36,709 bases of DNA, taken from an uncultured Porphyromonadaceae bacterium (GTDB lineage Bacteria; Bacteroidota; Bacteroidia; Bacteroidales; Muribaculaceae). Both the position numbers and the translations under genes were made by a program. This document shows, one piece after another, positions 6,082-27,775 of this stretch (position 1 is the stretch's first letter; each line of letters starts with the position of its first letter). The notes under the pieces were generated by a model that saw only the letters and a program-made list of their open reading frames with translations, was not told where the DNA came from and did not search any database. The stretch spans positions 1-36,709 of the forward strand of contig CAMWTJ010000017.1 in the NCBI GenBank assembly GCA_947177185.1, given 5' to 3'.

Positions 6082-6089
6082 CAAATATA
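6082..6089 (-). promoter_or_regulatory. Promoter -7 box for the DJ-1 gene
   Basis: Read on the minus strand the sequence is TATATTTG, a perfect -7 consensus. Transcription would begin near 6076, leaving about 12 bases before the ATG at 6065 or 24 before the one at 6053. No clear -33 TTTG is seen. Confidence 0.65.
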
Positions 6090-6123: not shown

Positions 6124-6163
6124 ATAAAAGCGGGAGCGCTCCCAAGGTAAGGTGCGCTCCCGC
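6124..6163 (-). terminator. Terminator at the end of the nuo-atp cluster
   Basis: On the minus strand GCGGGAGCGC (6163-6154) pairs perfectly with GCGCTCCCGC (6139-6130), and TTTTATTG follows. It lies 24 bases after the nuoN stop codon, so it ends the 18-gene unit. Confidence 0.85.
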
Positions 6164-6186: not shown

Positions 6187-7665
6187 TCAGACGAAATATG
6201 CGGCCAGCGGGCTTATCTCGCCCAGGTCGAAGATCCATGTGTAGACACAGCTGGCGATGCCGAGCAGCATCACGCCACCGACTGTGATCCACAGGCCCAG
6301 ACGCTCGCTGATACTGCTGCGGAATGTGCCGACAACAGGCTCGTCGGCGCTGATGTACATGGCTTTCACCACGAGCAGGTAGTAGTAGAGCGAGATGATG
6401 GTGTTGATAAGAGCGATGAGCACCAGAACGTAGATGGCAACGCTGCCCTGATTGATAGCTCCCGTAAAGATGAAGAATTTCGAGAAGAAACCTGCAAAGG
6501 GAGGTATGCCGGCCAGGGAGAACATGGCGAGCATCATTGAGAACGCAAGACGCGGATTGGTCTTGGACAGGCCGCGGTAGTCGGTCATGTCCACCTTGCC
6601 GCTTGCGCGCTCGATGGCGCCGATAACGCCGAACGCAGCGAGGTTGCTGAAGATGTAGACCAGGATGTAGTACATCATGGCAGTAAGGCCCATGGTGTTG
6701 AACGCCTCGATACCGAGCATGATATAGCCTGCTTGCGAGATAGACGAGAACGCCAGGAAGCGCTTCATGTTGGTCTGACGGATGGCGAAGAGGTTGCCGA
6801 CGGTGATGGTCAGGATAATGAGCGCGTAGAGCATCCACTCCCAGACATCGCTGTAGAGCGAGCCGAACACCTGCGCCAGAATCACGAGGAAGGAGAACGC
6901 TGCGGCGCCCTTGCTGATTACCGACAGATAGGATGTGACGGAGGTGGGGGCACCCTGATATACGTCGGCGGTCCAGAGGTGGAAGGGCACAAGCGAGAGT
7001 TTGAAGCCCATACCGGCTATCACGAACGCCACCGCGAGGGTAAGCATGAGCGAGTGTGTGCCGGCGCTGAGAGCGGCGTAAATGTTGCCGAAATAGAGCG
7101 AGCCGGCCAGGCCGTAAACGAAGCTGATGCCCATCATGAACACAGCCGAGGAGAACACGGCCGTGAGGATGTATTTCACGGCAGCCTCGTGGCTTTCGTA
7201 GTGGCGCTTGTCGAAGGCCACCATGGCTGCCAGCGGCAGCGAGGCGCACTCAAGGCCGATAACGAACAGCAGGAAGTGGCGGGCGGAAATCATCAGATAC
7301 ATGCCGAAGAGTGTCACCAGCAGCAGTTCGTAGAACTCGCCGCGGCGCACAGCCATGTGGTCGGAGCCCGACCATGAGATGCTCTGCAGAAGCACTATGA
7401 CAGCGCCTATGTTGAGAATACTCTTGATGGCGCACACTACCGGCGAAGTGGCGTACATGCCGGCGAACGCTTCGGTGGATGTGGCCGTGCCGAGGCAGTG
7501 GGAGCAGAAGCCCGCAGCCGTGGCGAGCAGCAGAAGCACGGTGCTGACAACGGGCAGGGCCTTGCCTGCGCGCTGGGGCATGAAAGTATCGTAAAGGAAT
7601 ACGAGCAGGAACACGACCAGGAGGCCGATTTCCTGTTTCATAGCCAAAAACTGTGAATAGTCCAT
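6187..7665 (-). CDS. nuoN: NADH-quinone oxidoreductase (complex I) subunit N
   Basis: This is a 492-residue polytopic membrane protein with about 14 hydrophobic helices. It is one of three antiporter-like proton-pumping subunits of complex I. Family signatures include VPFHLWTADVYQGAPTSV near residues 225-245, LAFSSISQAGYIMLGI near 304-320, and FSLAGIPPFAGFFSKFFIF near 385-405. It contains the conserved Lys/His residues in broken helices that carry the proton path. Length is normal for NuoN. The order nuoL-M-N at the end of the cluster is the standard one. It starts 15 bases after the nuoM stop and is the last gene of the operon, followed by a strong terminator. Confidence 0.95.
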   Translation of the reverse strand: MDYSQFLAMKQEIGLLVVFLLVFLYDTFMPQRAGKALPVVSTVLLLLATAAGFCSHCLGTATSTEAFAGMYATSPVVCAIKSILNIGAVIVLLQSISWSGSDHMAVRRGEFYELLLVTLFGMYLMISARHFLLFVIGLECASLPLAAMVAFDKRHYESHEAAVKYILTAVFSSAVFMMGISFVYGLAGSLYFGNIYAALSAGTHSLMLTLAVAFVIAGMGFKLSLVPFHLWTADVYQGAPTSVTSYLSVISKGAAAFSFLVILAQVFGSLYSDVWEWMLYALIILTITVGNLFAIRQTNMKRFLAFSSISQAGYIMLGIEAFNTMGLTAMMYYILVYIFSNLAAFGVIGAIERASGKVDMTDYRGLSKTNPRLAFSMMLAMFSLAGIPPFAGFFSKFFIFTGAINQGSVAIYVLVLIALINTIISLYYYLLVVKAMYISADEPVVGTFRSSISERLGLWITVGGVMLLGIASCVYTWIFDLGEISPLAAYFV

Positions 7666-7680
7666 TGCGTGATTAGTCTG

Positions 7681-9186
7681 TTAATTCATGCCGAGCACCG
7701 CGAAAATGTCGGGGCTGAAGGTGAAACGTATCAGGTTGCTGAAGAAGTTGGGGAAGCAGCCGATGGCAGCCACACAGAGTATGAGCGTGACGGTGCTGAG
7801 GCGTTCCCACCATGTGGCGTCGGTGAGCTCGAGGTGGTGCTTGTCCTGCACGGGACCGAACAGCAGCTTGCCCACGACGCGGAGTATGTAGACCGCCGTA
7901 ATCACAATCGAGCAGCAGGCCACGATGGTGAATGTGCGGTGGAACACGTCGGCATGCTGGAACGAGCCTACGAAGATGGTCATTTCAGCCACGAATCCCG
8001 AAAGACCGGGAAGGCCGAGCGATGCCATACCGGCAATCACGTAGCACACGGAGAGGTAAGGCATGATTTTCATCAGGCCGCCCATGGCACGTATGTCGCG
8101 TGTGTGCGTGCGTCCGTATATCATGCCTATGAGAGCAAAGAACAGAGCCGTCATAAGACCATGCGAGAGCATCTGCATGATGGCGCCTGTCATGGCTGTG
8201 GTGTTGAGCATGAGTATGGCGAACAGCACGAGGCCGCAGTGGCTCACGGAAGAATAGGCGTTGATATACTTGAGGTCGGTCTGCACGCATGCGCTGAACG
8301 CACCGTACACCACAGAAATGCCTGTGAGCACGAGGAATATCCATGCCAGCTCATTGGCGGCGTGGGGCATCAGGTAGATAGCCACACGGAAGCAACCGTA
8401 GCCGCCGAGCTTCATGAGCACGCCGGCGTGGAGCATCGACACCGCGGTGGGAGCGGACGCGTGACCGTCGGGGCTCCAGGTGTGGAAGGGGAACATGGCT
8501 CCAAGCACGCCGAAGCCTACAAACGTCATGGGGAAGAGGAAGCACTGCCAGCCGTGCGATATGGAATTGTTGCGCACGATTTCGAGTATGTTCCACGTAA
8601 GGGACTGGCCGGCGGGTGCCGAGTGGTAGTAAATACCTATCAGGCCAAGCATCAGGAAGGCCGAGCCGCCCATGAGCATGAGGGTGAGCTTCATGGCCGA
8701 ATACTCCTTGCGTCCCGAACCCCATACGCCGATAAGGAGGTACATGGGTATGAGGGCCACCTCATAGAACATGAACATCGTGAAGAGGTCAATCGAGATG
8801 AAGAAGCCGAACACGCCCGTGCTCAGGAGTATGAGCCAAAGGAAGAAGGCTTTGGGCTGCGGGATGGTCCACGATGCGAACGAGCCGGCGAAGACTATAA
8901 TTGCCGACAGCAGAATCATGGCCACGGAAATGCCGTCGACGCCGATTGCAAGATTGATGTGAAGCGGAGCAAACCAAGTCCAGCTGCCGGTGAAGAGCAT
9001 CGGATCAGTGTTGCCTGCGGCGCGGATGGCCAAATAGTCGACCAGAAGCTTTACGCTGAGGCCTACCAGGGCTATGGAACCCGCTACGGCCACTGCGCGT
9101 ATCTGCTTGATGTCGCGGCAGAGGGCGAGCCCTGCGAGCATGAGCAGGGGAATCACCACAAACCAGATTAATATATTGCTAAACAT
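7681..9186 (-). CDS. nuoM: NADH-quinone oxidoreductase (complex I) subunit M
   Basis: This 501-residue polytopic membrane protein is the second antiporter-like subunit of the membrane arm. Recognisable segments are the TM5 glutamate region FMFYEVALIPMYLLIGVWG (about 138-156), FPFHTWSPDGHASAPTAVSMLHAGVLMKLGGYG (split across about 223-255), and GLPGLSGFVAEMTIFVGSF near 400-420. The broken helix with Lys and the TM5 Glu needed for proton transfer are present. Start ATG at 9186 follows nuoL by 31 bases. A promoter-like box on the opposite strand in this gap is listed separately. Confidence 0.95.
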   Translation of the reverse strand: MFSNILIWFVVIPLLMLAGLALCRDIKQIRAVAVAGSIALVGLSVKLLVDYLAIRAAGNTDPMLFTGSWTWFAPLHINLAIGVDGISVAMILLSAIIVFAGSFASWTIPQPKAFFLWLILLSTGVFGFFISIDLFTMFMFYEVALIPMYLLIGVWGSGRKEYSAMKLTLMLMGGSAFLMLGLIGIYYHSAPAGQSLTWNILEIVRNNSISHGWQCFLFPMTFVGFGVLGAMFPFHTWSPDGHASAPTAVSMLHAGVLMKLGGYGCFRVAIYLMPHAANELAWIFLVLTGISVVYGAFSACVQTDLKYINAYSSVSHCGLVLFAILMLNTTAMTGAIMQMLSHGLMTALFFALIGMIYGRTHTRDIRAMGGLMKIMPYLSVCYVIAGMASLGLPGLSGFVAEMTIFVGSFQHADVFHRTFTIVACCSIVITAVYILRVVGKLLFGPVQDKHHLELTDATWWERLSTVTLILCVAAIGCFPNFFSNLIRFTFSPDIFAVLGMN

Positions 9187-9196
9187 TGTGTACTAC

Positions 9197-9204
9197 TATA
9201 TTTG
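9197..9204 (+). promoter_or_regulatory. Promoter-like -7 box antisense to nuoL
   Basis: TATATTTG on the plus strand lies in the 31-base gap between nuoM and nuoL and points into nuoL in antisense direction. A TTG lies near 9176-9178. It may be chance or may start an antisense RNA; no product gene follows. Confidence 0.2.
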
Positions 9205-9217
9205 TTTGTGGATTGGT

Positions 9218-11227
9218 TTAGAGCAGGCAGAGCATCGTTATGCCGCCGAGTGCCAGGGCGCCCAGCAGATACCACCATACGTAGAGCTGAACCTGTCCGC
9301 TCTGGAGGGGCTTGATAGCGCGCGATGCCTTGTTTGTGATTGTCGCGAACGCGTCCATGGTGCCGTCGATGATATGGCGGTCGAACCATGCTATGGGGCG
9401 GCAGATGCCGTCGAATATGATGCGATGCGTGATGAACATGTACAGTTCGTCCCAATAGAAGCGATGGTGGGCCCATTTCCAAAGACCGGGCATGGCTGCA
9501 CGCATCTTTTCGGGAAGCGGGTTTTCCTTGCGGTACATCACCGTGGCGATAGCGATGGCCACGACTGCCACGAAGAGGCTGACAGCGGCTACCGACCAGT
9601 CGAAATGCGCCATGAAATCGTAGCTCTTGCCGTTCCATGTGACGAACTTGCCGAAGGGTATGAAGCCGGCCACAAGGCTGATGGCCGCAAGGATAATCAG
9701 CGGCAGGCTCATGGTCCAGGGCTGATCGTGCGGGGCGTGGTGGCCTTCGTGCACCTTGTGTTCCTTCCACCAGAAAATGAGGTAGTAGAGTCGGAACATA
9801 TAGAACGCGGTAAGACCGGCCACAAGCGACATCCACACGTATATCACCGTGCTGTTGCCGAGGCAGCTGCTGAGGATCTCGTCCTTAGAGAAGAAACCCG
9901 AGAAGGGTATGATGCCCGCGATGGCCAGGCAGCCGATGAGGAACGTCCAGTGGGTTATGGGCATGTATTTGCGCAGGCCGTGCATTTCGGTGTAGTCGTT
10001 GGAGCCGATGGCGTGGATGAGAGCGCCGGCGCCGAGGAAGAGCAGAGCCTTGAACATGGCATGCGTGAAGAGGTGGAACATGGAGGCCATGTAGCCGAGG
10101 CCCTCGTGCATCTCGGGACGTGCCACACCGAGCGACACCATCATGAACGCAATCTGCGAGATGGTGGAGAACGCGAGCACACGCTTGATGTCAATCTGCG
10201 TGCACGCCACAATGGCCGCATAAAGGGCTGTGAGCGCACCGACCCATGTGACAAATTCCAGGGCCGAAACCTCCATCAGATAGAGCGGGAACAGACGTGC
10301 CACAAGGTAGACACCGGCCACAACCATGGTGGCGGCGTGGATGAGTGCCGACACGGGCGTGGGGCCTTCCATAGCGTCAGGCAGCCATATGTGGAGGGGA
10401 AGCATGGCCGATTTGCCCATGCCGCCCATAAAGATGAGCACCAGAGCCCATGTGAGCACCGACGCGCCCATGAACACCGGGGTGGCGCTGCTCTCGAACA
10501 CGCTCTTCACACCGGCGGCGGTGGATTCGCTGATCTGGAATACGCCGGCGAGGCCCTCGACGGGAGCCGATGTGAGCTCCGTGAAGTTGAACGTGCCGGT
10601 GTAGTACGACAGGATGAGTATGCCGATAAGGAAGCCGAGGTCGGCGAATCGGGTCACGATAAATGCTTTCTTCGAGGCCGACACTGCCGAGGGTTTCACA
10701 TAGTAGAAACCTATGAGCAGATAGGACGACGCACCCACAAGCTCCCAGAAGATGTACATCTGGAAAATGTTGGTGGCCACGACCAGGCCGAGCATCGAGA
10801 AGCTGAAGAGCGACAGGAACGCGTAGAAGCGCTGAAAACCGTGCTCGTAGACGCCGTGATGGTCGCGCATATAGCCCATGCTGTACAGATGCACCATGAA
10901 CGATATCGTGGTGATAACCACAAGCATCATGGCCGAGATGGGGTCGAGCAGGAAGCCGAGCCTGATTACGAGATTGTCGGTAAACGCGAGCCAGGTCTGA
11001 TTGAAAATGAGTGCCTGGAGGCGATTGCCTGCGGCGTCGACGAATTCAGGACTGCCGCTGAAGAAATAGGTGAATGCCGTGTAGTATGCAAGTACGAGGG
11101 TGGTGCCCATGCCGAGGCATCCGAGCGTACCGGCCAGTTTATGGCTCATCTTGCAGCCGGCAAGACCCAGCACAAGGAACATCCCCAGGGGGATGGCCAG
11201 AATGAGTATAGGTAGTGTTGCGTCCAT
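9218..11227 (-). CDS. nuoL: NADH-quinone oxidoreductase (complex I) subunit L
   Basis: This is a 669-residue membrane protein, the distal antiporter-like subunit. It carries the extra C-terminal part with the long amphipathic connecting helix and a last membrane anchor (LYVWWYLLGALALGGITM at the end). Motifs include IFWELVGASSYLLIGFY, LPLHIWLPDAMEGPTPVSALIHAATMV (about 276-302), LAFSTISQIAFMMVSLG, and IPFSGFFSKDEIL. The ATG at 11227 lies 5 bases after the nuoK stop. Length is slightly above E. coli NuoL (613 residues); the excess appears to be in the C-terminal region facing the cytoplasm, including a His-rich stretch (KEHKVHEGHHAPHD). Confidence 0.95.
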   Translation of the reverse strand: MDATLPILILAIPLGMFLVLGLAGCKMSHKLAGTLGCLGMGTTLVLAYYTAFTYFFSGSPEFVDAAGNRLQALIFNQTWLAFTDNLVIRLGFLLDPISAMMLVVITTISFMVHLYSMGYMRDHHGVYEHGFQRFYAFLSLFSFSMLGLVVATNIFQMYIFWELVGASSYLLIGFYYVKPSAVSASKKAFIVTRFADLGFLIGILILSYYTGTFNFTELTSAPVEGLAGVFQISESTAAGVKSVFESSATPVFMGASVLTWALVLIFMGGMGKSAMLPLHIWLPDAMEGPTPVSALIHAATMVVAGVYLVARLFPLYLMEVSALEFVTWVGALTALYAAIVACTQIDIKRVLAFSTISQIAFMMVSLGVARPEMHEGLGYMASMFHLFTHAMFKALLFLGAGALIHAIGSNDYTEMHGLRKYMPITHWTFLIGCLAIAGIIPFSGFFSKDEILSSCLGNSTVIYVWMSLVAGLTAFYMFRLYYLIFWWKEHKVHEGHHAPHDQPWTMSLPLIILAAISLVAGFIPFGKFVTWNGKSYDFMAHFDWSVAAVSLFVAVVAIAIATVMYRKENPLPEKMRAAMPGLWKWAHHRFYWDELYMFITHRIIFDGICRPIAWFDRHIIDGTMDAFATITNKASRAIKPLQSGQVQLYVWWYLLGALALGGITMLCLL

Positions 11228-11232
11228 CGGGC

Positions 11233-11544
11233 TTAATATTTCAGTTTGTTAAGGTCGCGCACGTCGATATTCTTGGCCGAGCGATAGAGGTTGATTATAA
11301 TCGCGATGGCAAGAGCCGTTTCGGCGGCGGCGATGGCTATGGCGAAGAGTGTGAAGAACATACCTTCCATGGCATCGGGCCAAAGATAACGGTTGAAGAC
11401 GGCGAAATTGATATCTACCGCATTGAGCATGAGCTCAAGCGAAATGAGGATGGCAATCATGTTGCGGCGGGTGATAAAGCCGTACACACCGCAGCAGAAC
11501 ATAATCAGTGCCGGAACGAGGAGCATTATTGCTTTGATTTCCAT
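11233..11544 (-). CDS. nuoK: NADH-quinone oxidoreductase (complex I) subunit K
   Basis: This 103-residue protein has three membrane helices at about 5-22, 28-52 and 60-84, the normal length and topology for NuoK. Conserved membrane glutamates lie in ISLELMLNAVDINF (TM2) and AAAETALAIAIIINLYR (TM3). They belong to the E-channel linking quinone chemistry to the pumping subunits. It is tightly packed in the operon: 7 bases after nuoJ and 5 before nuoL. Confidence 0.95.
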   Translation of the reverse strand: MEIKAIMLLVPALIMFCCGVYGFITRRNMIAILISLELMLNAVDINFAVFNRYLWPDAMEGMFFTLFAIAIAAAETALAIAIIINLYRSAKNIDVRDLNKLKY

Positions 11545-11551
11545 AGGGCGA

Positions 11552-12064
11552 TTAACGTTTGCGGGCGATGACTACGCCACCGATTATACATGCGAGCAAC
11601 AGCACACTGATGGCCTCGAACGGCAGCAGATAGCCACCCTCGGAGGTGCTCATCATGGATTCGCCGATCTGTTGCATCGTGGGTGTTTCAAGTGCGGGTT
11701 TGGCGACAAACAGGGCGCAGCGGCTGACAAGTGCATAGCCGGCCACGAGCAGCATGGCCACGGAGGCCACGGCGCCAAGCACGCGCGATTTAGAGGCAAG
11801 AGGCTCCGAATTGCGGCCGGGATGCGTCGTGAGCAGGATACTGAACACGAACAGCACCACTATGCCACCTGCGTACACCGCAATCTGCACCGCACCGAGA
11901 AACTCGTAGTCGAGCATGAAATATACACATGCGGCGGCAAACAGGGTGAACAGCAGATAGGTGGCCGCGCGCAGTATCTTGCGCGTGGTCACGGCCAGCA
12001 CGGAGAACACTACCATGGCCAAAGCGACGATAGTGTAGAGAATAATACTTCCTACTGATTCCAT
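11552..12064 (-). CDS. nuoJ: NADH-quinone oxidoreductase (complex I) subunit J
   Basis: This 170-residue membrane protein has five hydrophobic segments. The start SIILYTIVALAMVVFSVLAV (about 6-25) and LLFTLFAAACVYFMLDYEFLGAVQIAVYAGGIVVLFVFSILL (pieces between about 36 and 78) are typical. The latter contains the TM3 region with the pi-bulge that moves in turnover. NuoJ links the E-channel to the pump modules. Spacing is 15 bases to nuoI upstream and 7 to nuoK downstream. Confidence 0.95.
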   Translation of the reverse strand: MESVGSIILYTIVALAMVVFSVLAVTTRKILRAATYLLFTLFAAACVYFMLDYEFLGAVQIAVYAGGIVVLFVFSILLTTHPGRNSEPLASKSRVLGAVASVAMLLVAGYALVSRCALFVAKPALETPTMQQIGESMMSTSEGGYLLPFEAISVLLLACIIGGVVIARKR

Positions 12065-12079
12065 ATAGCTGATTGATTT

Positions 12080-12700
12080 TTATTTTTCGGTGTTGGTGGG
12101 CGCATCGGCCGGAGCTGCACCTTCGGCGGCTTTTGCTGCTGCCTCGCGCGCGGCCTTGGCTTTGGCGGCGGCTGCCTTAGCGGCCTCGATTTTGGCCTGA
12201 CGGGCTGCTTCTGCAGCAGCTATCTGCTCGGGGGTGGGAGCAGGCTCTTCTTTTTCGGGAAGATAATTGAGCTGCTTCACGAGCTTATCACGTGTGAACA
12301 CTGCCTGCTCGAAATCGTTGCTGAATTCGAGAGCGTTTGTCGGACAGGTGGTGGCACAGAGTGAGCAGAACATGCAGCTGCCGAGGTCGTAGAGATATCG
12401 GTCGAGCTTTTTCTTTTTGCCGGTGAGCGTGTCCACCATCCGGGTTTCAAGTTTGATGGTTCCGTTCGGACAGTTGCGCTCGCATGTGCCGCAGGCTATG
12501 CATTTGTGGTTGCCCTCGGCGTCGTAGATGAGCCGCAGCTCGGCGCGAAAACGCGGAGCGGCCGGCGAGTCAAGACGGTTGTCGGGGTATTCCTCCGTGA
12601 TTTTGCGGGTGACAAGCTCCTTGCCGGTCACCTGCATGCCTTTGATAAGGCTGGCGATACCCGTGCCTAAAGATGAAAAGTAATCTTTTACGCTACCCAT
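12080..12700 (-). CDS. nuoI: NADH-quinone oxidoreductase (complex I) subunit I, with alanine-rich C-terminal tail
   Basis: This 206-residue peripheral iron-sulfur subunit carries two [4Fe-4S] binding motifs, CIACGTCERNCP (about 67-78) and CMFCSLCATTCP (about 109-120). They transfer electrons towards NuoB and quinone. The N-terminal part TGIASLIKGMQVTGKELV is the amphipathic membrane-docking helix. From about residue 150 a long tail follows, Pro/Glu-rich and then Ala/Lys/Glu/Arg-rich, predicted to be a single charged helix; it has no counterpart in E. coli NuoI (180 residues). It is the first nuo gene after the inserted atp block: 58 bases separate it from atpG, with no promoter consensus in that gap. 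Confidence 0.95.
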   Translation of the reverse strand: MGSVKDYFSSLGTGIASLIKGMQVTGKELVTRKITEEYPDNRLDSPAAPRFRAELRLIYDAEGNHKCIACGTCERNCPNGTIKLETRMVDTLTGKKKKLDRYLYDLGSCMFCSLCATTCPTNALEFSNDFEQAVFTRDKLVKQLNYLPEKEEPAPTPEQIAAAEAARQAKIEAAKAAAAKAKAAREAAAKAAEGAAPADAPTNTEK

Positions 12701-12758
12701 TGAGTATGCTATGGTTTAGTTACTGATTTACACTGTGTTCATATATCGTCTGCGCCGG

Positions 12759-13658
12759 TCAGTCGCGCACCTGTCCGCCCACTATGTCAAGCAGTTCGGT
12801 GGTGATGCTTTGCTGACGCAGTTTGTTGTATTCGAGTTGCAGCTGTTCGAGCAGTTTGCGCGCGTTGTCGGTGGCGGCCTGCATGGCCATTACACGCGCG
12901 GCCTGTTCCGACGCCCTGTTTTCAGCGAACGCCTCCTGCAGTGTGGCAAGCAGATGCATCGGCAGCAGAGTGCTGAATATTGATGCGGCATCGGGCTCGT
13001 AGATGTATGGCTTAAGAGCGGTCTGCGCATCGGTATCGCCCGGGGCAAGCGCCGAGGTGTCGACCGGCAGCAGCCGGTCTGTGACGGCACGCTGGCGTCC
13101 GGCGCTGTGATAGTGCATATAGGCCAGTTCGAGGCTGTCGATCTCGCCTGCGAGGAAGCGCTGTATGAGCCCCTCGAGCATGGCTTTGATTTCGGGGCCG
13201 TCGGTACGGCTGTCGACGCCCTCCGCGGCGCGTATCTCAAGGCCTTCCACTCCCGACAGGCGCTGCGCCGCCTTGAGCATTTTCGCTCCCACGCAATGCA
13301 GCTCAACGCGCAGGCTCTCGCCCGCGTTGCCCGTGGCGCGCGCCTCGGCTATATAAGCATCGATGAACTTGGCAAGATTGGAATTATAGGCACCACAGAG
13401 TCCGTCGTCGCTGCCGAAGGCCACGATGGCAAGGCGCCGTACTTCGCGCACGTCCATCAGCGGCGACGCGAATTCGGCGTCGGAAGCAAGGAGGTTGGCC
13501 ATGATTCCCCGGATGCTCTCGCGGAAAGGCGTCAGCTTGCGCAACGCCTGCTCGGCCTTGCGCATTTTTGCGGAGGAAATCATCTTCATGGCACCGGTGA
13601 TTTTTTCCGTGGATGCCACGGAGCCGATGCGTCCTTTTAATTCTCTTAGTGTTGCCAT
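12759..13658 (-). CDS. atpG: ATP synthase F1 subunit gamma
   Basis: This 299-residue protein is the central rotor shaft. The N-terminal helix reads LRELKGRIGSVASTEKITGAMKMISSAKMRKAE, the family signature in pieces (about 4-36). The C-terminal helix has AMQAATDNARKLLEQLQLEYNKLRQQ and ends ITTELLDIVGG (about 264-296). These two helices form the coiled coil that turns inside the alpha3beta3 ring. It is the last gene of the atp block, 40 bases after atpA and upstream of nuoI. Confidence 0.96.
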   Translation of the reverse strand: MATLRELKGRIGSVASTEKITGAMKMISSAKMRKAEQALRKLTPFRESIRGIMANLLASDAEFASPLMDVREVRRLAIVAFGSDDGLCGAYNSNLAKFIDAYIAEARATGNAGESLRVELHCVGAKMLKAAQRLSGVEGLEIRAAEGVDSRTDGPEIKAMLEGLIQRFLAGEIDSLELAYMHYHSAGRQRAVTDRLLPVDTSALAPGDTDAQTALKPYIYEPDAASIFSTLLPMHLLATLQEAFAENRASEQAARVMAMQAATDNARKLLEQLQLEYNKLRQQSITTELLDIVGGQVRD

Positions 13659-13698
13659 TGCTTGGTGTTTGCGATGCTTGTCAGCGGTGCGCTGCGTG

Positions 13699-15267
13699 TC
13701 AGAACTGTCCTGCTACCTCTTTTGCAGCTTCTACAAGCGCTGCGGTGACTTCGTCGGTCAGACGGCCGGCGCGAATCTCGTCAAGCACAGCTTCGTGTCG
13801 AGCGTGCATGAGCTGCAGGAACTGTTTTTCGAATTCGGCCACTTTCTCCAGCGGAACGCTCTCGAGCAGACCGTTCACGCCGCAATAAATCACGGCCACC
13901 TCGTCCTCCACCGCCATAGGGTGGTACTGAGGCTGTATCAGCAGGCGCTCGTTCTTGCGGCCCTTGTCAATGACTCTTGCGGTCACGGGGTCGATGTCGC
14001 CGCCGAATTTGGTGAACGACTCGAGCTCGCGGAACTGGGCCTGGTCGATTTTCAGCGTGCCTGCCACTTTTTTCATTGATTTGATCTGCGCGTTGCCGCC
14101 CACACGGCTCACGGAGATACCCACGTTGATGGCCGGACGGATACCGCGGTTGAACAGAGCGGTTTCAAGGAATATCTGGCCGTCGGTGATAGAAATCACG
14201 TTGGTGGGAATGTAGGCCGAAACGTCGCCGGCCTGAGTTTCAATGATAGGAAGGGCTGTGAGCGAGCCGCCGCCTTTCACTTTGTCTTTCAGCACGGCCG
14301 GAAGGTCGTTCATGCGCGATGCCACCTCCTGGTTGTCAATGATTTTGGCTGCGCGTTCGAGCAGACGGGAGTGCAGATAGAAGATGTCGCCGGGATATGC
14401 CTCGCGGCCAGAAGGACGCTTCAGCACAAGCGAAATCTCGCGGTATGCCACGGCCTGCTTCGAAAGGTCGTCGTAGACGATGAGTGCGTCGCGGCCCGTG
14501 TCGCGGATATATTCACCTATAGCTACGCCTGCGAAGGGAGCGAAATAGCGCATGCTGGCCGACTCCGACGCCGTGGCGGCAACCACTACGGTGTAGTCGA
14601 GAGCGCCGTTGCGGCGCAGTGTGTCGACGATGGCGGCTACGCTCGACGCTTTTTGTCCGATGGCCACGTAGATACAGTAGACGGGCTTGCCGGCCTCGTA
14701 GTTCTGACGCTGGTTGATGATTGTGTCGATAGCGATGGCCGTTTTGCCTATCTGTCGGTCGCCGATGATAAGCTCGCGCTGTCCGCGGCCAATGGGCACC
14801 ATGGCGTCGATGGCCTTCAGACCGGTCTGAAGGGGCTGCTTCACCGGCTGACGGTAAATGACACCGGGAGCCTTGCGCTCAAGCGGCATGAGCAGGCGCT
14901 CGCCTGCGATGGGGCCGCGGCCGTCGATCGGCTCGCCCAGCACATTGACTACGCGTCCGAAGAGTCCTTCTCCCACGGGGATGGAAGCAATCTCGCCTGT
15001 GCGCTTCACCTTCATGCCTTCGGTGATGGCGTTGACATTGTTGAGCAGAATGACGCCGACGTTGCTTTCCTCAAGGTTGAGAGCCACGCCCATAGCGCCG
15101 TTTTCGAACTCTACGAGCTCGTTGGCACACACCTTGTCGAGGCCATAGACATGTGCTACGCCGTCGCCCACTTCGAGCACCGTGCCGGTTTCTTCGAAGC
15201 TGACCTTGGCGTTGACGCTTTCGAGTTGTTGTTTGAGAACTTCCGAAATCTCGCTTGGATTAATCAT
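13699..15267 (-). CDS. atpA: ATP synthase F1 subunit alpha
   Basis: This 522-residue protein is the non-catalytic nucleotide-binding subunit of F1. The P-loop is [14 protein letters not shown] (about 170-183). The arginine finger region is [19 protein letters not shown] (about 369-387), with the conserved VGGNAQ variant seen in many bacteria. The N-terminal 20 residues ([10 protein letters not shown]) form the delta-binding helix. ATG at 15267 is 27 bases after atpH. Confidence 0.97.
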
Positions 15268-15294
15268 TGTATGGATGAGAGTGCTGGGGAGGTG

Positions 15295-15855
15295 TTACTG
15301 TTTCTTTAAGATATTGAGGCGGAGATTGTCGAGGCGGGCACGCACCGATGCGTCGAGGCGCTCGCTGGCGATGTCGATGGCGAATCCTCCGATGAGAGCG
15401 GGGTCAACGCGTTCTTCATACTCCATTGTTGCATCCGGGCCGATGTGGCTCTGGATGAGTGCGCGCATGCGCTTGCTCTCGTCGGCGCCGAGCGGCGCTG
15501 CCGAGGTGACGCGAACGGGGTAGATGCCACGCTGCGCACGATAGCAGTCGATGTAGGCACGGGCTATGTCGGCGGCCATGCCTGTACGATGGTTTTCGAC
15601 AAGTACGCGCATCCAGTCGGCAAAGGTGGAGCCGGATGCAGCTTGGGCCGGGAGGCCGGCGGCAGTTTCGAGCAGGCGGCGCTTGTCGGCGTCGCCCACA
15701 TACGGGTTGGCCAGCGTGTGCGCAAGCTCGGGATGCGACACTGCGGCATCGGCGAGCGCGCGCATGCTGTCGTAGAGCATCTCTGCCTGGCCTCGTTCAG
15801 AGGCCACCTCGTACAAAGCCTTGGCGTAGCGGCGGGGTATCAGACCTTCGTTCAT
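15295..15855 (-). CDS. atpH: ATP synthase F1 subunit delta
   Basis: This is a 186-residue stator subunit joining the top of F1 to the b dimer. The N-terminus PRRYAKALYEVASE and the C-terminal VDPALIGGFAIDIASERLDASVRARL (in two parts, about 147-176) are the OSCP/delta signatures. Length is normal. It lies between atpF and atpA as usual, 18 bases after atpF. Confidence 0.95.
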   Translation of the reverse strand: MNEGLIPRRYAKALYEVASERGQAEMLYDSMRALADAAVSHPELAHTLANPYVGDADKRRLLETAAGLPAQAASGSTFADWMRVLVENHRTGMAADIARAYIDCYRAQRGIYPVRVTSAAPLGADESKRMRALIQSHIGPDATMEYEERVDPALIGGFAIDIASERLDASVRARLDNLRLNILKKQ

Positions 15856-15873
15856 GTCAGATGTTGTGGCGCT

Positions 15874-16371
15874 TTAGTTTTGCGTTTCAATCTCGTTCAG
15901 CAGCTTGTCGACGAGCTGTCGCTGCTCTTTGTCGGCTGCCAGGTTCTGCTGCACCACCTTTTGGGCGATGTCGAGCGCTATGGCACCGACGCTGGCACGC
16001 AGCTGCTCTTCGGCCTGCTTCTGCTGCTGCGCGATAGACACCTTGGCGGCGTCCATCACTTTCTGAGCCTCGGACTGCGCGGCAGCGCGCGCTTCCTCGA
16101 CCAGACGCGACTTCATCTTGTCGGCCTCACGCAGCATGTCGGCTTGCTGCCGCTGCGCCTGGCGGATAAGGTCGTCGGCCGTGGAGCGTGCATTGTCGAG
16201 CTGGGCCTTGGCCTCCTGCGCATACTCAACGCCTTTGTCTATAAGGTCTGCCCGGCTGTCGACGCTTTTGAGGATGACGGGCCAGGCGAACTTCCACAGA
16301 ATCAGGAAGAGCATGCCGAAAGCGACGAACATCCAAAATACAAGGCCAAAGTCAGGCGTGAATAGTTCCAT
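15874..16371 (-). CDS. atpF: ATP synthase Fo subunit b
   Basis: This is a 165-residue peripheral stalk subunit. A single membrane helix lies at about 8-28 (FGLVFWMFVAFGMLFLILWKF). The rest is a long charged helix rich in Ala, Gln, Glu and Arg, predicted to be a coiled coil (about 35-160). The family-typical membrane-near sequence is KFAWPVILKSVDSRADLI. It should work as a dimer holding F1 against rotation. It is encoded once; no b' partner is present. Confidence 0.95.
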   Translation of the reverse strand: MELFTPDFGLVFWMFVAFGMLFLILWKFAWPVILKSVDSRADLIDKGVEYAQEAKAQLDNARSTADDLIRQAQRQQADMLREADKMKSRLVEEARAAAQSEAQKVMDAAKVSIAQQQKQAEEQLRASVGAIALDIAQKVVQQNLAADKEQRQLVDKLLNEIETQN

Positions 16372-16395
16372 TCGTAGCGATGGGGGTATAAACGA

Positions 16396-16647
<252 letters not shown>

Positions 16648-16693
16648 TTAAGTGGGTTTATGTTTTGTTTATTTATTTCTGTTTTGATGTAAA

Positions 16694-17791
16694 TCAGTGC
16701 GCGGCGGCTTCGTGCGATGCTTCGCCGTGGTGCTCCTCGTTGGACAGCCCGATGAATATGGTGCTGAGCATTGTGAACACATAGGCCTGGATGAAACTTA
16801 CCAGCACGTCGATAAGCAGCATGAACACGCTGAACACCATCGACACCGCCGTGGCGACGCCTCCGGCCGCAGCGCTCACAGCCGCGAATATGAATATGAG
16901 CAATGTGAGCACAATCACTATCATGTGGCCACCCATCATGTTGGCAAACAGACGCACAGTCAGGGCGGCGGGCTTCGTGAACATGCCGAAGATTTCAATC
17001 ATGGGCATGATGGGAAGCGGAAACTTGAGCCACAGAGGCACATCGGGCCAGAATATCTCTTTCCAGTAATGGCGGTTGCCTGAGATATTGGTGACCAGGA
17101 ACGTCAGGAGCGCAAGCACGAGAGTGATGGCTATATTGCCCGTGAGGTTGGCACCGCCGGGAAAGACGACTATCAGGCCGAGAAGGTTCATGAAGAAGAT
17201 GAAGAAGAATACCGTGAGCAGATACGGCGCGAAGCGTCGCGCCTTGCTGCCCAGTGTGCTCTTGATCACCGACACGTATATGAAATCCACCAGCAGCTCC
17301 AAAAAGCCGAGTCCCTTGCGCGGCGCCTTGAATCCGTTGCGGCGATACCAGCGGGCGAGCCAAAGCATCAGACCGGCCACAAGCACTACGGAAATGAACA
17401 GCGCGCACACGTTTTTCGTGATTGAGAAATCCCACGGACGCGTTTCTTTGCCGTCGGGTCCGATTTCCACGATTTTACCACGGTACTCGCTGTCCTTGCC
17501 GCCGAGGCGGAAGCTCACATCGCCGTCGCGGTATGTTTCGCCGCCGGTGATGCGCGCCGAGGAGAACACGTGCAGTCCGCCGGTGCCCCACACTATGCAG
17601 GGCAGCGGCAGGCGGTGATGGTGGTCAAACGGCACCTCCCATCCGTAGCCGTCGCCAAGGTGCTCGAATATGATTTCCTTGGGGTTTATGGCAGACGCCT
17701 CGCCGTGCTGCCCTTCATGCGCTTCGGCGGAATATGCCGGCATGGTTGCGACAGCGAAGATGGCTGCGAATATGATAAACAATCGCTTCAT
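16694..17791 (-). CDS. atpB: ATP synthase Fo subunit a, with signal peptide and long N-terminal domain
   Basis: The protein has 365 residues from the ATG at 17791. That start gives a clean signal peptide (MKRLFIIFAAIFAVATMPAY); an upstream extension would run into atpC. The first hydrophobic segment of the conserved part begins near 127 (KNVCALFISVVLVAGLMLWL). Residues about 22-125 therefore form an extra domain outside the membrane, with His-rich pieces HEGQHGE and FDHHHR. The stator arginine is Arg280 in KPAALTVRLFANMMGGH, matching Arg210 of E. coli. The C-terminal helices end with a His-rich tail (EEHHGEASHEAAAH). E. coli subunit a has 271 residues, so the extra mass is mostly N-terminal, as in other Bacteroidetes/Chlorobi proteins I recall. 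Confidence 0.94.
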   Translation of the reverse strand: MKRLFIIFAAIFAVATMPAYSAEAHEGQHGEASAINPKEIIFEHLGDGYGWEVPFDHHHRLPLPCIVWGTGGLHVFSSARITGGETYRDGDVSFRLGGKDSEYRGKIVEIGPDGKETRPWDFSITKNVCALFISVVLVAGLMLWLARWYRRNGFKAPRKGLGFLELLVDFIYVSVIKSTLGSKARRFAPYLLTVFFFIFFMNLLGLIVVFPGGANLTGNIAITLVLALLTFLVTNISGNRHYWKEIFWPDVPLWLKFPLPIMPMIEIFGMFTKPAALTVRLFANMMGGHMIVIVLTLLIFIFAAVSAAAGGVATAVSMVFSVFMLLIDVLVSFIQAYVFTMLSTIFIGLSNEEHHGEASHEAAAH

Positions 17792-17810
17792 TGCAAAGAC
17801 GCGGATGGGA

Positions 17811-18047
17811 TTAATATACACAGACATTGATTACGTTGTTGTCCACATCGGCCACACCTCCCGTGATGGCACGGGTGTGCTCGCTGCCGTCGGGCGTGCG
17901 GTAGGCTACCGTGCCGGCCGACAGTATGGCCACAAGCGACGCGTGGTTGCGCAACACTGTGAAGGCGCCCTGCTGGCCGGGCAGCGTGGCTGAACTTACT
18001 TCGCCCTCGAATATCACTTCGGCCGCCGATATGACTTTCAGTATCAT
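17811..18047 (-). CDS. atpC: ATP synthase F1 subunit epsilon, beta-sandwich only
   Basis: This 78-residue protein contains the N-terminal beta-sandwich: LKVISAAEVIFEGEVSSATLPGQQG (about 3-27) and the segment LVAILSAGTVAYR. The C-terminal two-helix domain that in E. coli (139 residues) locks the enzyme against ATP hydrolysis is absent. The stop codon is clean and the next gene starts 19 bases later, so this is a natural short form rather than a frameshift. It couples gamma to the c ring. It lies 26 bases after atpD, the usual Bacteroidetes order atpD-atpC first. Confidence 0.93.
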   Translation of the reverse strand: MILKVISAAEVIFEGEVSSATLPGQQGAFTVLRNHASLVAILSAGTVAYRTPDGSEHTRAITGGVADVDNNVINVCVY

Positions 18048-18073
18048 GACTGTGTGCTGTTGGATTTATAGGA

Positions 18074-19582
<1,509 letters not shown>

Positions 19583-19613
19583 TTATTTGGGAAGGGATTG
19601 ATGTACTTGATAG

Positions 19614-20690
19614 TTAGAAATGCCAGCCAAAGACTATAACGCATGTCATAAGCACAAGGTTGAAAAGACCTATGGGTAAAAGGTATTTCCATTCCATGGC
19701 GAGCACCTGGTCGATACGCAGACGGGGGAAAGTCCACTTGAACCATATGATGATGCCGCTGAGCGCTATAGCCTTGCCGATGAACCACACCACGGAGGGT
19801 ATGAAATCCATTATATGATTGAACGCGGTCCATCCGGGAATGTGCAGGGGCATCCAGCCGCCGAAGAAGAGCAGCGAGGCCACACCTGCCACGATGAACA
19901 GGTTGAGATATTCGGCCAGATAGAAGAATCCGAAATGTATGCCGGAGTACTCCGTGTGATAGCCTGCCGTGAGCTCGCTTTCAGCCTCGGGAAGGTCGAA
20001 CGGGCCACGGTTGGTTTCGGCCGTACCGGCAATCATATAGATGACGAACGCGATAATGGCGGGCACATGGCCTTTGAAGATGAACCAGCAGTCCTGCTGT
20101 TCGGCCACTATCTCGCCCACGTTCATGGTGCCGGCGAAGCAGACCATGGTGATGACGCTGAGGCCGATCGACAGCTCGTAGCTGACCATCTGCGCGCCGG
20201 AGCGCATGGCACCTATGAGTGTGAACTTGTTGTTCGACGACCATCCGGCGAGCAGGATACCGAGCACACCGATGCTCGAAACCGCAAGCAGGAAGAATAT
20301 GCCGATATTGAAATCGATTATCTGCAGCCCGTTGCCCCAGGGAAGCACAGCGAAGGCGAGCATGGAGGCGAGTATCACGAGATACGGAGCAAGCGCAAAA
20401 AGGAACTTGTCGACATGATTGAGCGAAATCAGCTCCTTGATGAGAATCTTGAACATATCGGCAAAGCTCTGCAGCAGTCCCCAGGGACCTACGCGGTTGG
20501 GGCCCAGGCGGCACTGGATGGCCGCGCAGAATTTACGTTCGTAGTATATGTAGAAAAGAGCCAGGAGCGAATAGGCAAGCAGAAGGCCCACGCCTATCAG
20601 CACACACTCCACCGTGACTGTGAGCCACGCGGGCATAAAGCCCGAGAGAAAGGAGTGGATGGCATCGGTGATTACCGACAGATCGTACAT
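19614..20690 (-). CDS. nuoH: NADH-quinone oxidoreductase (complex I) subunit H
   Basis: This 358-residue membrane protein has eight hydrophobic helices. It forms the quinone chamber next to NuoB/NuoD. Motifs include [20 protein letters not shown] (about 49-68), [34 protein letters not shown] with the conserved acidic loop, and [21 protein letters not shown] (split). The C-terminal [19 protein letters not shown] is typical. It is the last nuo gene before the atp block. Spacing is 36 bases after nuoCD and 37 before atpD. Confidence 0.95.
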
Positions 20691-20726
20691 GATGCGTTGT
20701 GTATAATTGGTTTATTACTTTTTGAA

Positions 20727-22361
20727 TTAACGGTCCATGTCGGGCACGATATAGTCGAGCGAGCCACCGATGGTGATAAGGTCGGCAATTTTCTCGCCAC
20801 GGGTGAGGTGGTCGACGACACCTGCCGCAGGCATCGAGGGTGTGGCATACTTGAGGCGGGCGGGCTTGGTGCCACCGTCGCTTTCGAGGTGTATGCCGAA
20901 CACACCGCGGCAGCCTTCCACTATCTGGAACCACTGGCCGGCGGGCAGTTTCAGCACCTTGGGCACTTTGGCCTGGATGTCGCCCTCGGGTATATTGTCG
21001 ACGAGCTGCTCGAGTATGCGGGCGCTCTGCTCTATTTCGGCAAGGCGCACCTTGAAACGCGCCATGGAGTCGCCTTCGGTGAGCACCACCTCGTCGAAAT
21101 CGAGATCGGAGTAGATGCTGTACGGACGCCATTTGCGCACGTCGCAGGCCCAGCCGGAAGCACGGCCGCTGGGGCCGGTGACACCGTAGCTAATGGCGTC
21201 TTCACGCGACAGAACGCCGACGCCTTCCATGCGGTTGCGGGCTATCACATTGCCCACGAACACCTTTTTGTATTCCTTGATATTGGCGGGCAGCACTTTC
21301 AGCAGCGCCTTGACATCGTTTTGGAAATTGGCGTCGAGATCCTGCATCACACCGCCGATGCAATCGTAGTTGAAGCTCATGCGGGCTCCGCAGGTGCGCT
21401 CGAGGATGTCGAGAATCTGCTCGCGCACGCGGAGCGTGTAGAACAGCATCGACGTGGCACCGAGGTCCATGCAGAAGGTGCCCATGAAGAGGCAGTGCGA
21501 GGCGATGCGCGACAGCTCGTCCATCATCACTCGTATCACCTGCGCGCGGCGGGGCACTTCGATGCCGGCGGCACGTTCGTAGACCATGCAGACGCCGTGA
21601 TGGTAGTTCAGAGCCGAGAAATAGTCCATACGGTCGAGGAACGGGAGCGACTGCGCGTAGGTCTGCTGCTCGTTGAGCTTTTCGATACCGCGGTGTATGT
21701 AGCCCATGTAGACGTCGATTTTCTTGATGGTTTCGCCATCAACAGCCGTACGGAAACGCAACACACCGTGTGTGGCGGGGTGCTGCGGGCCGATATTGAC
21801 CACAAAATCGTCCGGGGCGAACACCTCTACCTGCTCCGACACGAGATTGCCTTCGGCGTCCTTGGTCCACTTGGTGGTGAAATCGCTCTGGCGCTCATTG
21901 TCGCGGGGCACGGGGTTGATATTGGGAGATGCGTCGTAGTCCTTGCGCAGGGGGTAGCCTTTCCAGTCTATGCTGAGGAAAAGGCGACGCATGTCGGGAT
22001 TGTTCAGGAATATTATGCCGAAGAAATCGTAGACTTCGCGCTCGTACAGACCGGCTACAGCCCATATGTCGCTCACGGAGTGGAGCACGGGACGCTCGCG
22101 GTCGCCGGTGGCGAGCACCGTCACGCCCAGGTTGGTATTGTGGCGCGTCGACATCATGTAGTAAACGCAGCCCATGGATTCCACATGGTCGAAGCCTGCT
22201 ATAGTCACGAGATAGTCCATCTCGAGATTGGCGTCGTGGCGCAACGCCTTGGCCAGCTCATGCCAATGAGCGTCGTCGACGGATATCATCGGCGCGCCGT
22301 CCACCTCGGCGACAGTGGCCGCGGGGCAGATTTTGGCAATTATTTCATTAAGAGTTGCCAT
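20727..22361 (-). CDS. nuoCD: NADH-quinone oxidoreductase (complex I) fused subunits C and D
   Basis: This 544-residue protein joins NuoC (about 1-150) to NuoD (about 165-544). The NuoC part shows REVYDFFGIIFLNNPDMRRL and WKGYPLRKDY. The NuoD part starts near NIGPQHPATHGVLRF (quinone-site His) and ends with SLDYIVPDMDR, close to the universal GSLDxVxxDxDR ending. No B-family fusion is present. The linker around 150-165 is short. Fused NuoCD is common in Bacteroidetes and in enterobacteria. It lies 54 bases after nuoB. Confidence 0.95.
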   Translation of the reverse strand: MATLNEIIAKICPAATVAEVDGAPMISVDDAHWHELAKALRHDANLEMDYLVTIAGFDHVESMGCVYYMMSTRHNTNLGVTVLATGDRERPVLHSVSDIWAVAGLYEREVYDFFGIIFLNNPDMRRLFLSIDWKGYPLRKDYDASPNINPVPRDNERQSDFTTKWTKDAEGNLVSEQVEVFAPDDFVVNIGPQHPATHGVLRFRTAVDGETIKKIDVYMGYIHRGIEKLNEQQTYAQSLPFLDRMDYFSALNYHHGVCMVYERAAGIEVPRRAQVIRVMMDELSRIASHCLFMGTFCMDLGATSMLFYTLRVREQILDILERTCGARMSFNYDCIGGVMQDLDANFQNDVKALLKVLPANIKEYKKVFVGNVIARNRMEGVGVLSREDAISYGVTGPSGRASGWACDVRKWRPYSIYSDLDFDEVVLTEGDSMARFKVRLAEIEQSARILEQLVDNIPEGDIQAKVPKVLKLPAGQWFQIVEGCRGVFGIHLESDGGTKPARLKYATPSMPAAGVVDHLTRGEKIADLITIGGSLDYIVPDMDR

Positions 22362-22415
22362 ATATTATATTATTGTATATCTATTGAAGACGTGATGTGT
22401 TGGATACTCTCGCGC

Positions 22416-23075
22416 TTATTGCTTGTCGGTCACAGGGGCTTCGGGTGCCGAGGTGTTGAACTCGGCGCTATCGTTCACTCCTTCCACGGGATGCTCACGC
22501 AGGAACTCCTGCTGCTTCTGCTGCCTGTTGACACCGCCGAAGAAACGCTCCACCTTCACTTTGCGCGAAAGCTGCATGATGGAATAAATCATGGCTTCGG
22601 GGCGGGGCGGACAGCCGGGCAGGAACACGTCGACCGGGATAATCTGGTCAACGCCCTTGACCACATGATAGCTGTCGCGGAACGGACCGCCGCTGATGGC
22701 GCACGCGCCGGTGGCAATCACATATTTCGGTTCGGCCATCTGGTCGTACAGACGACGCAGCACAGGCGCCATACGGTGCACGATGGTGCCGGCCACCATT
22801 ATAAAGTCGGCCTGACGGGGCGACGAACGCGCCACTTCCCATCCGAAACGCGCCATATCGTAGCGCGCAGCGCCAAGGCTCACGAATTCGATGCCGCAGC
22901 AGCTTGTAGCGAAGGTCAGAGGCCACAGCGAGTTGGAGCGGCCCCAGTTGATAAGCTTGTCGAGAGAGCCGACCACGACATTGGTGCCGTTTTCCTGCAG
23001 CTCTTTTACGAGAGATTCAATATATTCGTTGTCTTTGAACGCCTCATAGGGCATTCCCTGTGCGGTTACTTCCAT
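22416..23075 (-). CDS. nuoB: NADH-quinone oxidoreductase (complex I) subunit B
   Basis: This 219-residue peripheral subunit carries the terminal [4Fe-4S] cluster N2. The ligand cysteines are visible in [12 protein letters not shown] (two adjacent Cys), [10 protein letters not shown], and [11 protein letters not shown]. It hands electrons to quinone at the interface with NuoD and NuoH. The C-terminal about 50 residues (after [12 protein letters not shown]) are an unconserved polar tail. Its start overlaps the end of nuoA by ten bases, indicating translational coupling. Confidence 0.96.
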
Positions 23076-23446
23076 TCCAACGCTCCTTTCCGCCAGGCAT
23101 AAACAAGGCCCAGCACTAACACTCCGAAAAACACTGCGATGCTCACAAGGCCGCCGACGCCCATCTCGCGGACACGTACTGCCCAGGGGAAGAGGAACAC
23201 CGTTTCGACGTCGAACATCAGAAACAGAATTGCGAACAGGTAATAGCCCACCTTAAACTGAGCCATGCTTTCGCCTCGCGTGGGGATACCGCACTCGTAG
23301 GCTTCGCCCTTCTGCGCGTTGAACGATTTAGGCGAAATCAGGCCGGCGAGCCAGAGGGCAAGCGCCACAAGGCCGATGCCGGTAAGGGCTGCCGTAATGG
23401 CCAGCAGGCCATTGTTGGAGATTCCGAAAATGTCTAATGCGATCAT
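23066..23446 (-). CDS. nuoA: NADH-quinone oxidoreductase (complex I) subunit A
   Basis: The protein has 126 residues from the ATG at 23446; a GTG at 23470 is a less likely start. Three membrane helices lie at about 8-34, 60-85 and 94-116. Family motifs are [11 protein letters not shown] with the conserved TM1-2 loop cysteine, then [26 protein letters not shown]. This is the first gene of the 18-gene nuo-atp cluster. The transcript appears to start about 130 bases upstream. Confidence 0.94.
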
Positions 23447-23586: not shown

Positions 23587-23595
23587 GCAAATTTA
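23587..23595 (-). promoter_or_regulatory. Promoter of the nuo-atp cluster
   Basis: On the minus strand the sequence reads TAAATTTGC, a perfect -7 box. A TTGG at 23622-23619 is the only -33 candidate and its spacing is a little long. Transcription would begin near 23580, giving a leader of about 135 bases. It is the only consensus box upstream of any gene in the 17 kb cluster on this strand that I found at gene boundaries. Confidence 0.6.
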
Positions 23596-23708: not shown

Positions 23709-23718
23709 TTGGTCATAG

Positions 23719-27714: not shown

Positions 27715-27762
27715 AACAAAATAAAACAGGCTGCGCCGTGGCGCAGCCTGTTTTATTTTGTT
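27715..27762. terminator. Bidirectional terminator between convergent genes
   Basis: A perfect 22-base inverted repeat (27715-27736 with 27741-27762) encloses a 4-base loop. The core is CAGGCTGCGC/GCGCAGCCTG, flanked by A-rich and T-rich arms, so it can terminate transcripts from both the M16 gene and the phosphoesterase gene. Confidence 0.92.
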
Positions 27763-27775
27763 ACATGCAATCGCT

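Follow-up and report, generated by a model that had tools for sequence, protein, structure and literature searches.

The genes for complex I and ATP synthase in this Muribaculaceae genome are nested, the atp operon lying inside the nuo operon. This order is an old, inherited feature, because it was published for the family in 2016, is family-wide wherever it can be read, and is common to seven families. The cluster probably represents one long housekeeping energy operon, which atp would have entered once, in a common ancestor, with vertical inheritance since.

The window, the whole stretch of DNA analysed (36,709 nucleotides), comes from a genome that belongs to Muribaculaceae (labelled f1 in the genome comparison). 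NCBIfam profiles matched 18 of 18 genes in the order nuoA-B-CD-H, atpD-C-B-E-F-H-A-G, nuoI-J-K-L-M-N, all on the minus strand, from the nuoA ATG at 23446 to the nuoN stop at 6187. A preliminary description had claimed this nuo-atp-nuo order on one strand, along with a largest gap of 58 bases. Both claims hold: intergenic gaps range from -17 to 58 nt, and the 58-nt gap is found twice (atpB/atpE and atpG/nuoI). For nuoA, the ORF tool calls a GTG start at 23470 instead of the ATG at 23446. The features are as follows, all genes being profile matches:

23588..23595, minus: promoter-like -7 box TAAATTTG upstream of nuoA (TAnnTTTG scan)
23066..23446, minus: nuoA
22416..23075, minus: nuoB
20727..22361, minus: nuoCD (fused)
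19614..20690, minus: nuoH
19577..19613, minus: upstream seam nuoH/atpD, 37 nt, without TAnnTTTG box
18074..19576, minus: atpD (beta)
17811..18047, minus: atpC (epsilon, 78 aa; profile covered in its first part only)
16694..17827, minus: atpB (a subunit)
16396..16635, minus: atpE (c subunit)
15874..16371, minus: atpF (b)
15295..15855, minus: atpH (delta)
13699..15267, minus: atpA (alpha)
12759..13658, minus: atpG (gamma)
12701..12758, minus: downstream seam atpG/nuoI, 58 nt, without strong hairpin (z +0.65)
12080..12700, minus: nuoI
11552..12064, minus: nuoJ
11233..11544, minus: nuoK
9218..11227, minus: nuoL
7681..9186, minus: nuoM
6187..7665, minus: nuoN
6131..6144, minus: terminator-like hairpin after nuoN (scan and sequence reading; the full inverted repeat exceeds the scan match)

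Both blocks had been called complete. This stands for atp, which encodes eight of eight F1Fo ATP synthase subunits (alpha, beta, gamma, delta, epsilon, a, b, and c). It is wrong for nuo, because the nuoE, nuoF, and nuoG genes are missing from the cluster by NCBIfam profiles; that block can be called complete only as an 11-subunit complex I (NuoA, B, C, D, H, I, J, K, L, M, and N all found). The NuoF profile has no match anywhere in the genome (completeness 90.9%); NuoE and NuoG were checked at the cluster alone. Hence the locus lacks the NADH module (NuoE/NuoF/NuoG) of a 14-subunit NADH:quinone oxidoreductase, and it bears on the use of complex I without this module in gut bacteria. The AtpE sequence has a glutamate followed by G (EG, not ES/ET) and no PxxxQ. 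As it lacks the Na+ motif, we take AtpE, on a motif reading only, to be a proton-type c subunit.

How widespread is the nested order? In the family as sampled, nesting is seen in 123/123 genomes whose NuoH and AtpG share a contig, and NuoL lies 1.4–2.0 kb downstream of AtpG in 131/132 genomes with both on one contig. The order-level sample comprised 97 genomes whose NuoH match reached E 1.1e-110 or better, with AtpG listed in 71; among the matches listed, 20 of these 71 are nested, in seven families, and 51 are not. The nested families are Muribaculaceae and six more, among them the families to which Barnesiella and Coprobacter belong. Gene order was read out in 16 nested loci from outside f1 and 11 from f1, and extends to nuoN in 15 and 10 of these, respectively; the exceptions end at a contig end (L030) or are split (G007). 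Moreover, nuoJ-N is relocated elsewhere in two genomes, so one transcript is not indispensable.

These comparisons, together with the 2016 publication, dispose of the novelty implied by the preliminary description. It had proposed comparing the surroundings of nuoH-nuoI across Bacteroidales, and had named an order already described as standard for the family as the outcome that would count against it; the order is indeed the family norm, and the window's gene order needs no special explanation. A recent insertion in the window's own lineage is likewise ruled out, since nesting is family- and clade-wide. The remaining structural claims fare better: related Bacteroidales do keep nuo and atp apart, as stated for Bacteroides-type genomes, and the gene order bears out an operon within an operon at the nuoH/nuoI boundary.

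The chance that misassembly of a fragmented genome produced the order is practically nil. The window genome is in 82 contigs, and one relative (G104) breaks within atpF at runs of N. However, the order was read fully in two near-complete genomes of three contigs (G057) and one contig (G368), and a further single-contig genome (G092) is nested by spacing. The same order occurs in the named records Coprobacter secundus strain 177 and Barnesiella sp. An22; nesting in so many other assemblies refutes an artefact of this kind.

The trees of the nuo and atp blocks agree on the nested group, except for one genome in the separate state (G275), which the nuo trees place inside that group. Apart from this misplaced genome, the gene trees fit a single ancestral event, and the present trees suggest that nested genomes fall in one internal clade only. 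The reverse history, in which nesting was ancestral in Bacteroidales and atp later moved out in other families, is very improbable. It could draw on the distant genome G392, with tandem nuoA-N-atpD-G order, and on G243 and G321, in which atp lies close to nuo; nuo-atp closeness thus recurs. Against this, a scan of named records found nuoH followed by nuoI in 48 of the best 80 loci (atpD follows in the other 32), and nuoI follows nuoH in each of seven outgroup nuo loci read. Adjacency of nuoH and nuoI is kept in named Bacteroides, Phocaeicola, Butyricimonas, Odoribacter, and Alistipes records. In other orders of the phylum, none of 59 genomes with both NuoH and AtpD among the matches listed (24 of them with both on one contig) has the two less than 42 kb apart on one contig; nesting was found in none of these 59. 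Finally, the atp tree gives the nested clade an internal position. Presumably, then, the atp operon came inside the nuo operon once, in an ancestor that Muribaculaceae shares with six sister families, and the nested order was passed on vertically thereafter.

Is the cluster one transcription unit? As the preliminary description had claimed, a TAnnTTTG box lies upstream of nuoA (23588-23595), and none is found on the minus strand at the internal gene boundaries; the sole minus-strand match within the cluster (11381-11388) sits inside nuoK. The next box (6082-6089) follows the cluster, just before a same-strand DJ-1-like ORF. The terminator claimed after nuoN is borne out as terminator-like: a 10-bp GC-rich inverted repeat, then a T run, lies just past the gene. 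Matches to a sigma-70-like promoter were uninformative (11 versus 9.6 expected). Among nested loci, TAnnTTTG occurs within 250 nt upstream of nuoA in 36/49, at the nuoH-atpD seam in 2/50 (both in family f80), and at the atpG-nuoI seam in 1/50; separate atpD has the box in 5/7 testable loci. The box is an insensitive promoter marker, because it lies upstream of nuoA in only 4/12 non-nested loci.

Hairpins complicate the downstream seam. In nested loci, the atpG-nuoI seam has a hairpin stem of at least 7 bp in 20/50 (8 expected), z falls below -2 in 13/39, and six loci picked for their hairpins give dinucleotide z of -2.1 to -5.5. Such hairpins could act as terminators and leave the two blocks partly independent of each other. 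On this reading the genes are linked and the blocks expressed separately, with atpD and nuoI each preceded by a weak or non-consensus promoter and atpG followed by a terminator. The hairpins in several families and the two f80 boxes at nuoH-atpD speak for it; nevertheless, it is unlikely. The window's own seam, unlike that of several relatives, has no strong hairpin; a T run stands behind only 3/20 seam hairpins versus 19/25 of those after nuoN; the consensus box is absent from most seams; and the median gaps at the two seams are short (45 and 67.5 nt).

Codon adaptation points the same way. The median difference, nuo minus atp, is +0.015 in 18 nested and -0.038 in 7 separate genomes; that is, pooled nuo is level with atp in nested genomes and lower in separate ones, a contrast that rests on one evolutionary transition. 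By itself, nuoA-H falls below alpha plus beta in 16/18 nested genomes, and nested against separate genomes do not differ significantly in this respect (p=0.24). Contrary to separate expression, nuoI-N is no lower than nuoA-H in nested genomes, and no polarity effect on nuoI-N was found there.

Co-transcription of the nuo-atp cluster is therefore left as likely, and read-through across the seams as plausible, judged from sequence features. Most likely, a transcript begins ahead of nuoA, spans all 18 genes, and ends just past nuoN. Complex I, with 11 subunits and no NADH-oxidising NuoEFG module, would thus be made together with a proton-type F1Fo ATP synthase. Some relatives have a hairpin behind atpG, which may adjust read-through or the stability of the RNA. 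As to a selective reason, we infer only tentatively, and with doubt outweighing belief, that nesting is an expression device. In one gut Bacteroidales clade, it would have brought nuo expression up to that of ATP synthase and locked the ratio between them. The fast-changing atpG-nuoI hairpin would work as an adjustable attenuator, setting how much of the complex I membrane arm is supplied in proportion to ATP synthase.

The locus plainly shows a large energy operon enclosed by a second one, an arrangement since retained in at least seven families. In close relatives the operons are separate, which makes for a natural comparison of whether operon fusion alters expression balance.

Related systems share parts of this arrangement. 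Sections of a study of NuoEFG-less complex I in Prevotella (PMC6560451) contain nothing on gene order. For Bacteroides fragilis, passages of PMC4154653 describe an atp locus in which the beta and epsilon genes come first, and a Bacteroidetes epsilon without its C-terminal half; the window's atp block is alike in both respects. The passages of that survey on F0F1 ATP synthase loci say nothing of nesting in nuo. In three separate loci (L035, L036, and L038), the atpC and atpB alignments lie about 440 nt apart, whereas these genes overlap in the window. The B. fragilis nuo operon (BF638R_0841-0850) also lacks nuoEFG, according to the portions of Ito et al. (2020, PMC7002350) that describe it; it is poorly expressed in rich medium, with no NADH oxidation attributable to nuo. 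Unlike the window, it occupies ten consecutive locus tags, with no space for atp, and named Bacteroides records have nuoI after nuoH.

The closest likeness is within the family. Ormerod et al. (2016, PMC4936053) report, in their account of S24-7 or 'Ca. Homeothermaceae', ATP synthase genes integrated in the complex I locus; 'Candidatus Homeothermaceae' and Muribaculaceae are one taxon in NCBI taxonomy. The nested order in Muribaculaceae has thus been known since 2016, and the window matches that locus in having F-type ATP synthase genes enclosed by those of complex I. The relevant passages of that paper are silent on the insertion point, on occurrence outside the family, and on promoters, hairpins, and codon data. 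To the published order, the present analysis adds its consistency across the family, six further families, gene trees, boxes and hairpins at the seams, and codon adaptation.

In the window, the cluster at 6187..23446 on the minus strand reads nuoA, B, CD, H; atpD, C, B, E, F, H, A, G; and nuoI, J, K, L, M, N, with every gene named by NCBIfam scans. The intergenic gaps from nuoA to nuoN are -10, 54, 36, 37, 26, -17, 58, 24, 18, 27, 40, 58, 15, 7, 5, 31, and 15 nt. The window contains 20 copies of the promoter-like -7 box TAnnTTTG, against 9.1 expected; the single minus-strand copy within the cluster lies inside nuoK, and further copies stand before nuoA and after nuoN. These scans bear out the preliminary description in its coordinates, gene order, strand, spacing, and boxes. 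Its statement that both blocks are complete does not hold for the nuo part: the NCBIfam scans of the cluster found no nuoEFG, so the cluster encodes the 11-subunit form, and NuoF had no match anywhere in the window's genome.

Other features of the window are:
23718-23792, minus strand: tRNA-Pro (TGG) with a terminator-like hairpin, immediately upstream of the nuo promoter region
4537-5403 and 3349-4449, both plus strand: a voltage-gated-type ion channel (Pfam Ion_trans) adjoining an MscS-type mechanosensitive channel
27758-29677, plus strand: an open frame of 639 aa behind an M16 peptidase; neither Pfam nor NCBIfam gave a match for it at E<=0.001

The window's family (f1) was sampled in 149 genomes, taking the first row per genome and leaving genomes without a match outside the pairs. 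NuoH and AtpG were both found in 144/149: on one contig in 123, and on different contigs in 21. AtpG lies 5.8-6.8 kb downstream of NuoH, on the same strand, in all 123 shared-contig genomes. AtpG and NuoL were both found in 143 genomes (G116 and G121, with weak NuoL matches only, were left out), and NuoL lies 1.4-2.0 kb downstream in 131. Eleven of the other 12 pairs are on different contigs; in the twelfth (G007) the genes share a contig about 1 Mb apart. G007 (loci L046 and L139) and G137 (L137 and L138) keep nuoA-H, atp, and nuoI together, with nuoJ-K-L-M-N elsewhere, and are secondary splits at nuoI/nuoJ. A further genome, G104 (L135, L136), has atpF apparently split over two contigs. Because runs of N lie at the break in both pieces, this is most likely an assembly or scaffolding fault; the genome was kept unaltered and is counted among the 21 different-contig pairs.

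Across the order, 97 of 247 genomes match NuoH at E<=1.1e-110, and AtpG is among the matches listed for 71 of those. Among these listed matches, the nested spacing occurs in 20/71 genomes, from families f1, f99, f18, f61, f24, f54, and f80; in the remaining 51, NuoH and AtpG are on different contigs in 47 and share a contig without nesting in four (G243, G230, G267, and G321). All 16 of the nested loci fetched from outside f1 have the order, one of them (L030) ending in nuoL at the contig end. Among the best 80 loci of a scan of named records, the gene after nuoH is atpD in 32 and nuoI in 48. Among the former are Coprobacter secundus, identical to G292 of f54, and Barnesiella sp. An22, which lies next to f99 genomes in trees; the latter include an Odoribacter sp. 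and species of Bacteroides, Phocaeicola, Butyricimonas, and Alistipes, in agreement with the preliminary description, which gave separate operons as the Bacteroides-type arrangement. Four nested metagenome records (L084, L112, L060, L114) are labelled Bacteroides sp., Bacteroidaceae, or Prevotellaceae, labels that we take as coarse. The phylum sample comprised 198 genomes, the window's own included. Outside the order, AtpD reaches E<=1e-150 in 100 others; NuoH is also among the matches listed in 59, with a shared contig in 24, and among those matches no nesting was seen, the closest NuoH/AtpD pair being 42 kb apart.

Trees were built from concatenated NuoB, CD, H, L, and M (33 rows) and AtpD, A, B, and G (30 rows), after removal of rows that covered under half of the columns. 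The nested families group together in both. The atp tree unites them in a single clade with a support of 99, sister to Butyricimonas and G243. The nuo tree also gives one group (support 100), but places inside it G275, a genome with separate blocks that falls with Bacteroides and Phocaeicola in the atp tree. Its nuo branch is very long and lies beside a taxon without nuoM data (Barnesiella An22 in this nuo tree, G312 in another nuo tree), and nuoM was not found on the G275 stretch. We read this placement as a missing-data artefact; it nonetheless counts against clean monophyly in that tree. A single event seems to lie at the origin of all nested genomes. Two distant genomes have other layouts: G392 (L164, L165; SUXD01000010.1, 'Bacteroidales bacterium isolate SIG115') carries nuoA-N and then atpD-G in tandem on one strand, with two TAnnTTTG boxes in a nuoN-atpD spacer of about 300 nt; in G321 (L042), atpG and preceding atp genes share the strand of nuoA and lie some 6 kb upstream of it. 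These layouts could have arisen independently, or could point to an intermediate.

The seams were compared in 50 nested loci (the window, 15 of the 16 from outside f1, 15 from f1, and 19 of the 32 named), which are related and so not independent. Median gaps are 45 nt at nuoH-atpD and 67.5 nt at atpG-nuoI. The box appears at nuoH-atpD in 2/50 loci (both f80), at atpG-nuoI in 1/50, and within 250 nt of nuoA in 36/49; requiring a -33 element too leaves 13/49 at nuoA and none at any internal junction. In separate loci, it lies within 300 nt of atpD in five of seven testable cases (an eighth locus ends within atpD). Since only 4/12 non-nested loci (11 genomes, tandem G392 included) have a box at nuoA, absence of the box is weak evidence.

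Hairpins of at least 7 bp occur at atpG-nuoI in 20/50 nested loci, where mononucleotide shuffles predict 8, and at nuoH-atpD in 3/50, where 2.9 are expected; atpA-atpG is also somewhat more structured than expected (z below -2 in 4/15). A T run follows only 3/20 of the atpG-nuoI hairpins; after nuoN, a hairpin occurs in 25/28 loci, with a T run in 19. Strong atpG-nuoI hairpins, some of them with a T run, are found in L016, L018-L021, L026, L027, L051, L053, L058, L063, L064, and L137. Dinucleotide z is -2.1 to -5.5 in six loci picked for such hairpins, and +0.65 at the window's seam. The hairpin sequences vary between families, and strong hairpins are missing elsewhere, the window included. 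These structures could act as attenuators or RNA-stabilising ends, or be remnants of the old atp terminator.

Codon adaptation was referred to open frames of the ribosomal-protein cluster round rplB, picked by length and strand rather than annotated. (A search of 29 genomes for rplB located it in 28; of 28 stretches fetched, 25 were used, omitting G092, with no nuo locus fetched; G167, with atp cut; and G156, with a short ribosomal stretch.) The nuo minus atp difference has a median of +0.015 (-0.030 to 0.025) in 18 nested genomes and -0.038 (-0.156 to -0.002) in seven separate ones (p=1.2e-4); as the nested genomes seemingly stem from one event, this and the following p-values overstate the evidence. 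The effect is uneven: against alpha+beta, p=0.24 for nuoA-H, 0.041 for nuoB+CD, and 0.021 for nuoI-N; for membrane genes, p=0.0003. In 16/18 nested genomes nuoA-H falls under alpha+beta, and adaptation does not fall off between nuoA-H and nuoI-N.

In the portions of open-licence literature searched, no description was found of the nested order in sister families, of hairpins at the seam, or of codon parity; all of these may well have been mentioned elsewhere before. The nested order itself is not new, and one of the refuting grounds that the preliminary description had named, a prior account of the order as the family's standard, applies: a passage of Ormerod et al. 2016 (PMC4936053) already states atp/nuo integration for family S24-7. 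The paper's name for that family, 'Ca. Homeothermaceae', leads to Muribaculaceae in NCBI taxonomy. Family f1, to which the window belongs, includes G034, and the stretch L003 fetched from that genome is identical to L123, a record with Muribaculaceae in its title. The nested gene order is real, old, and stable, and was previously reported for the family.
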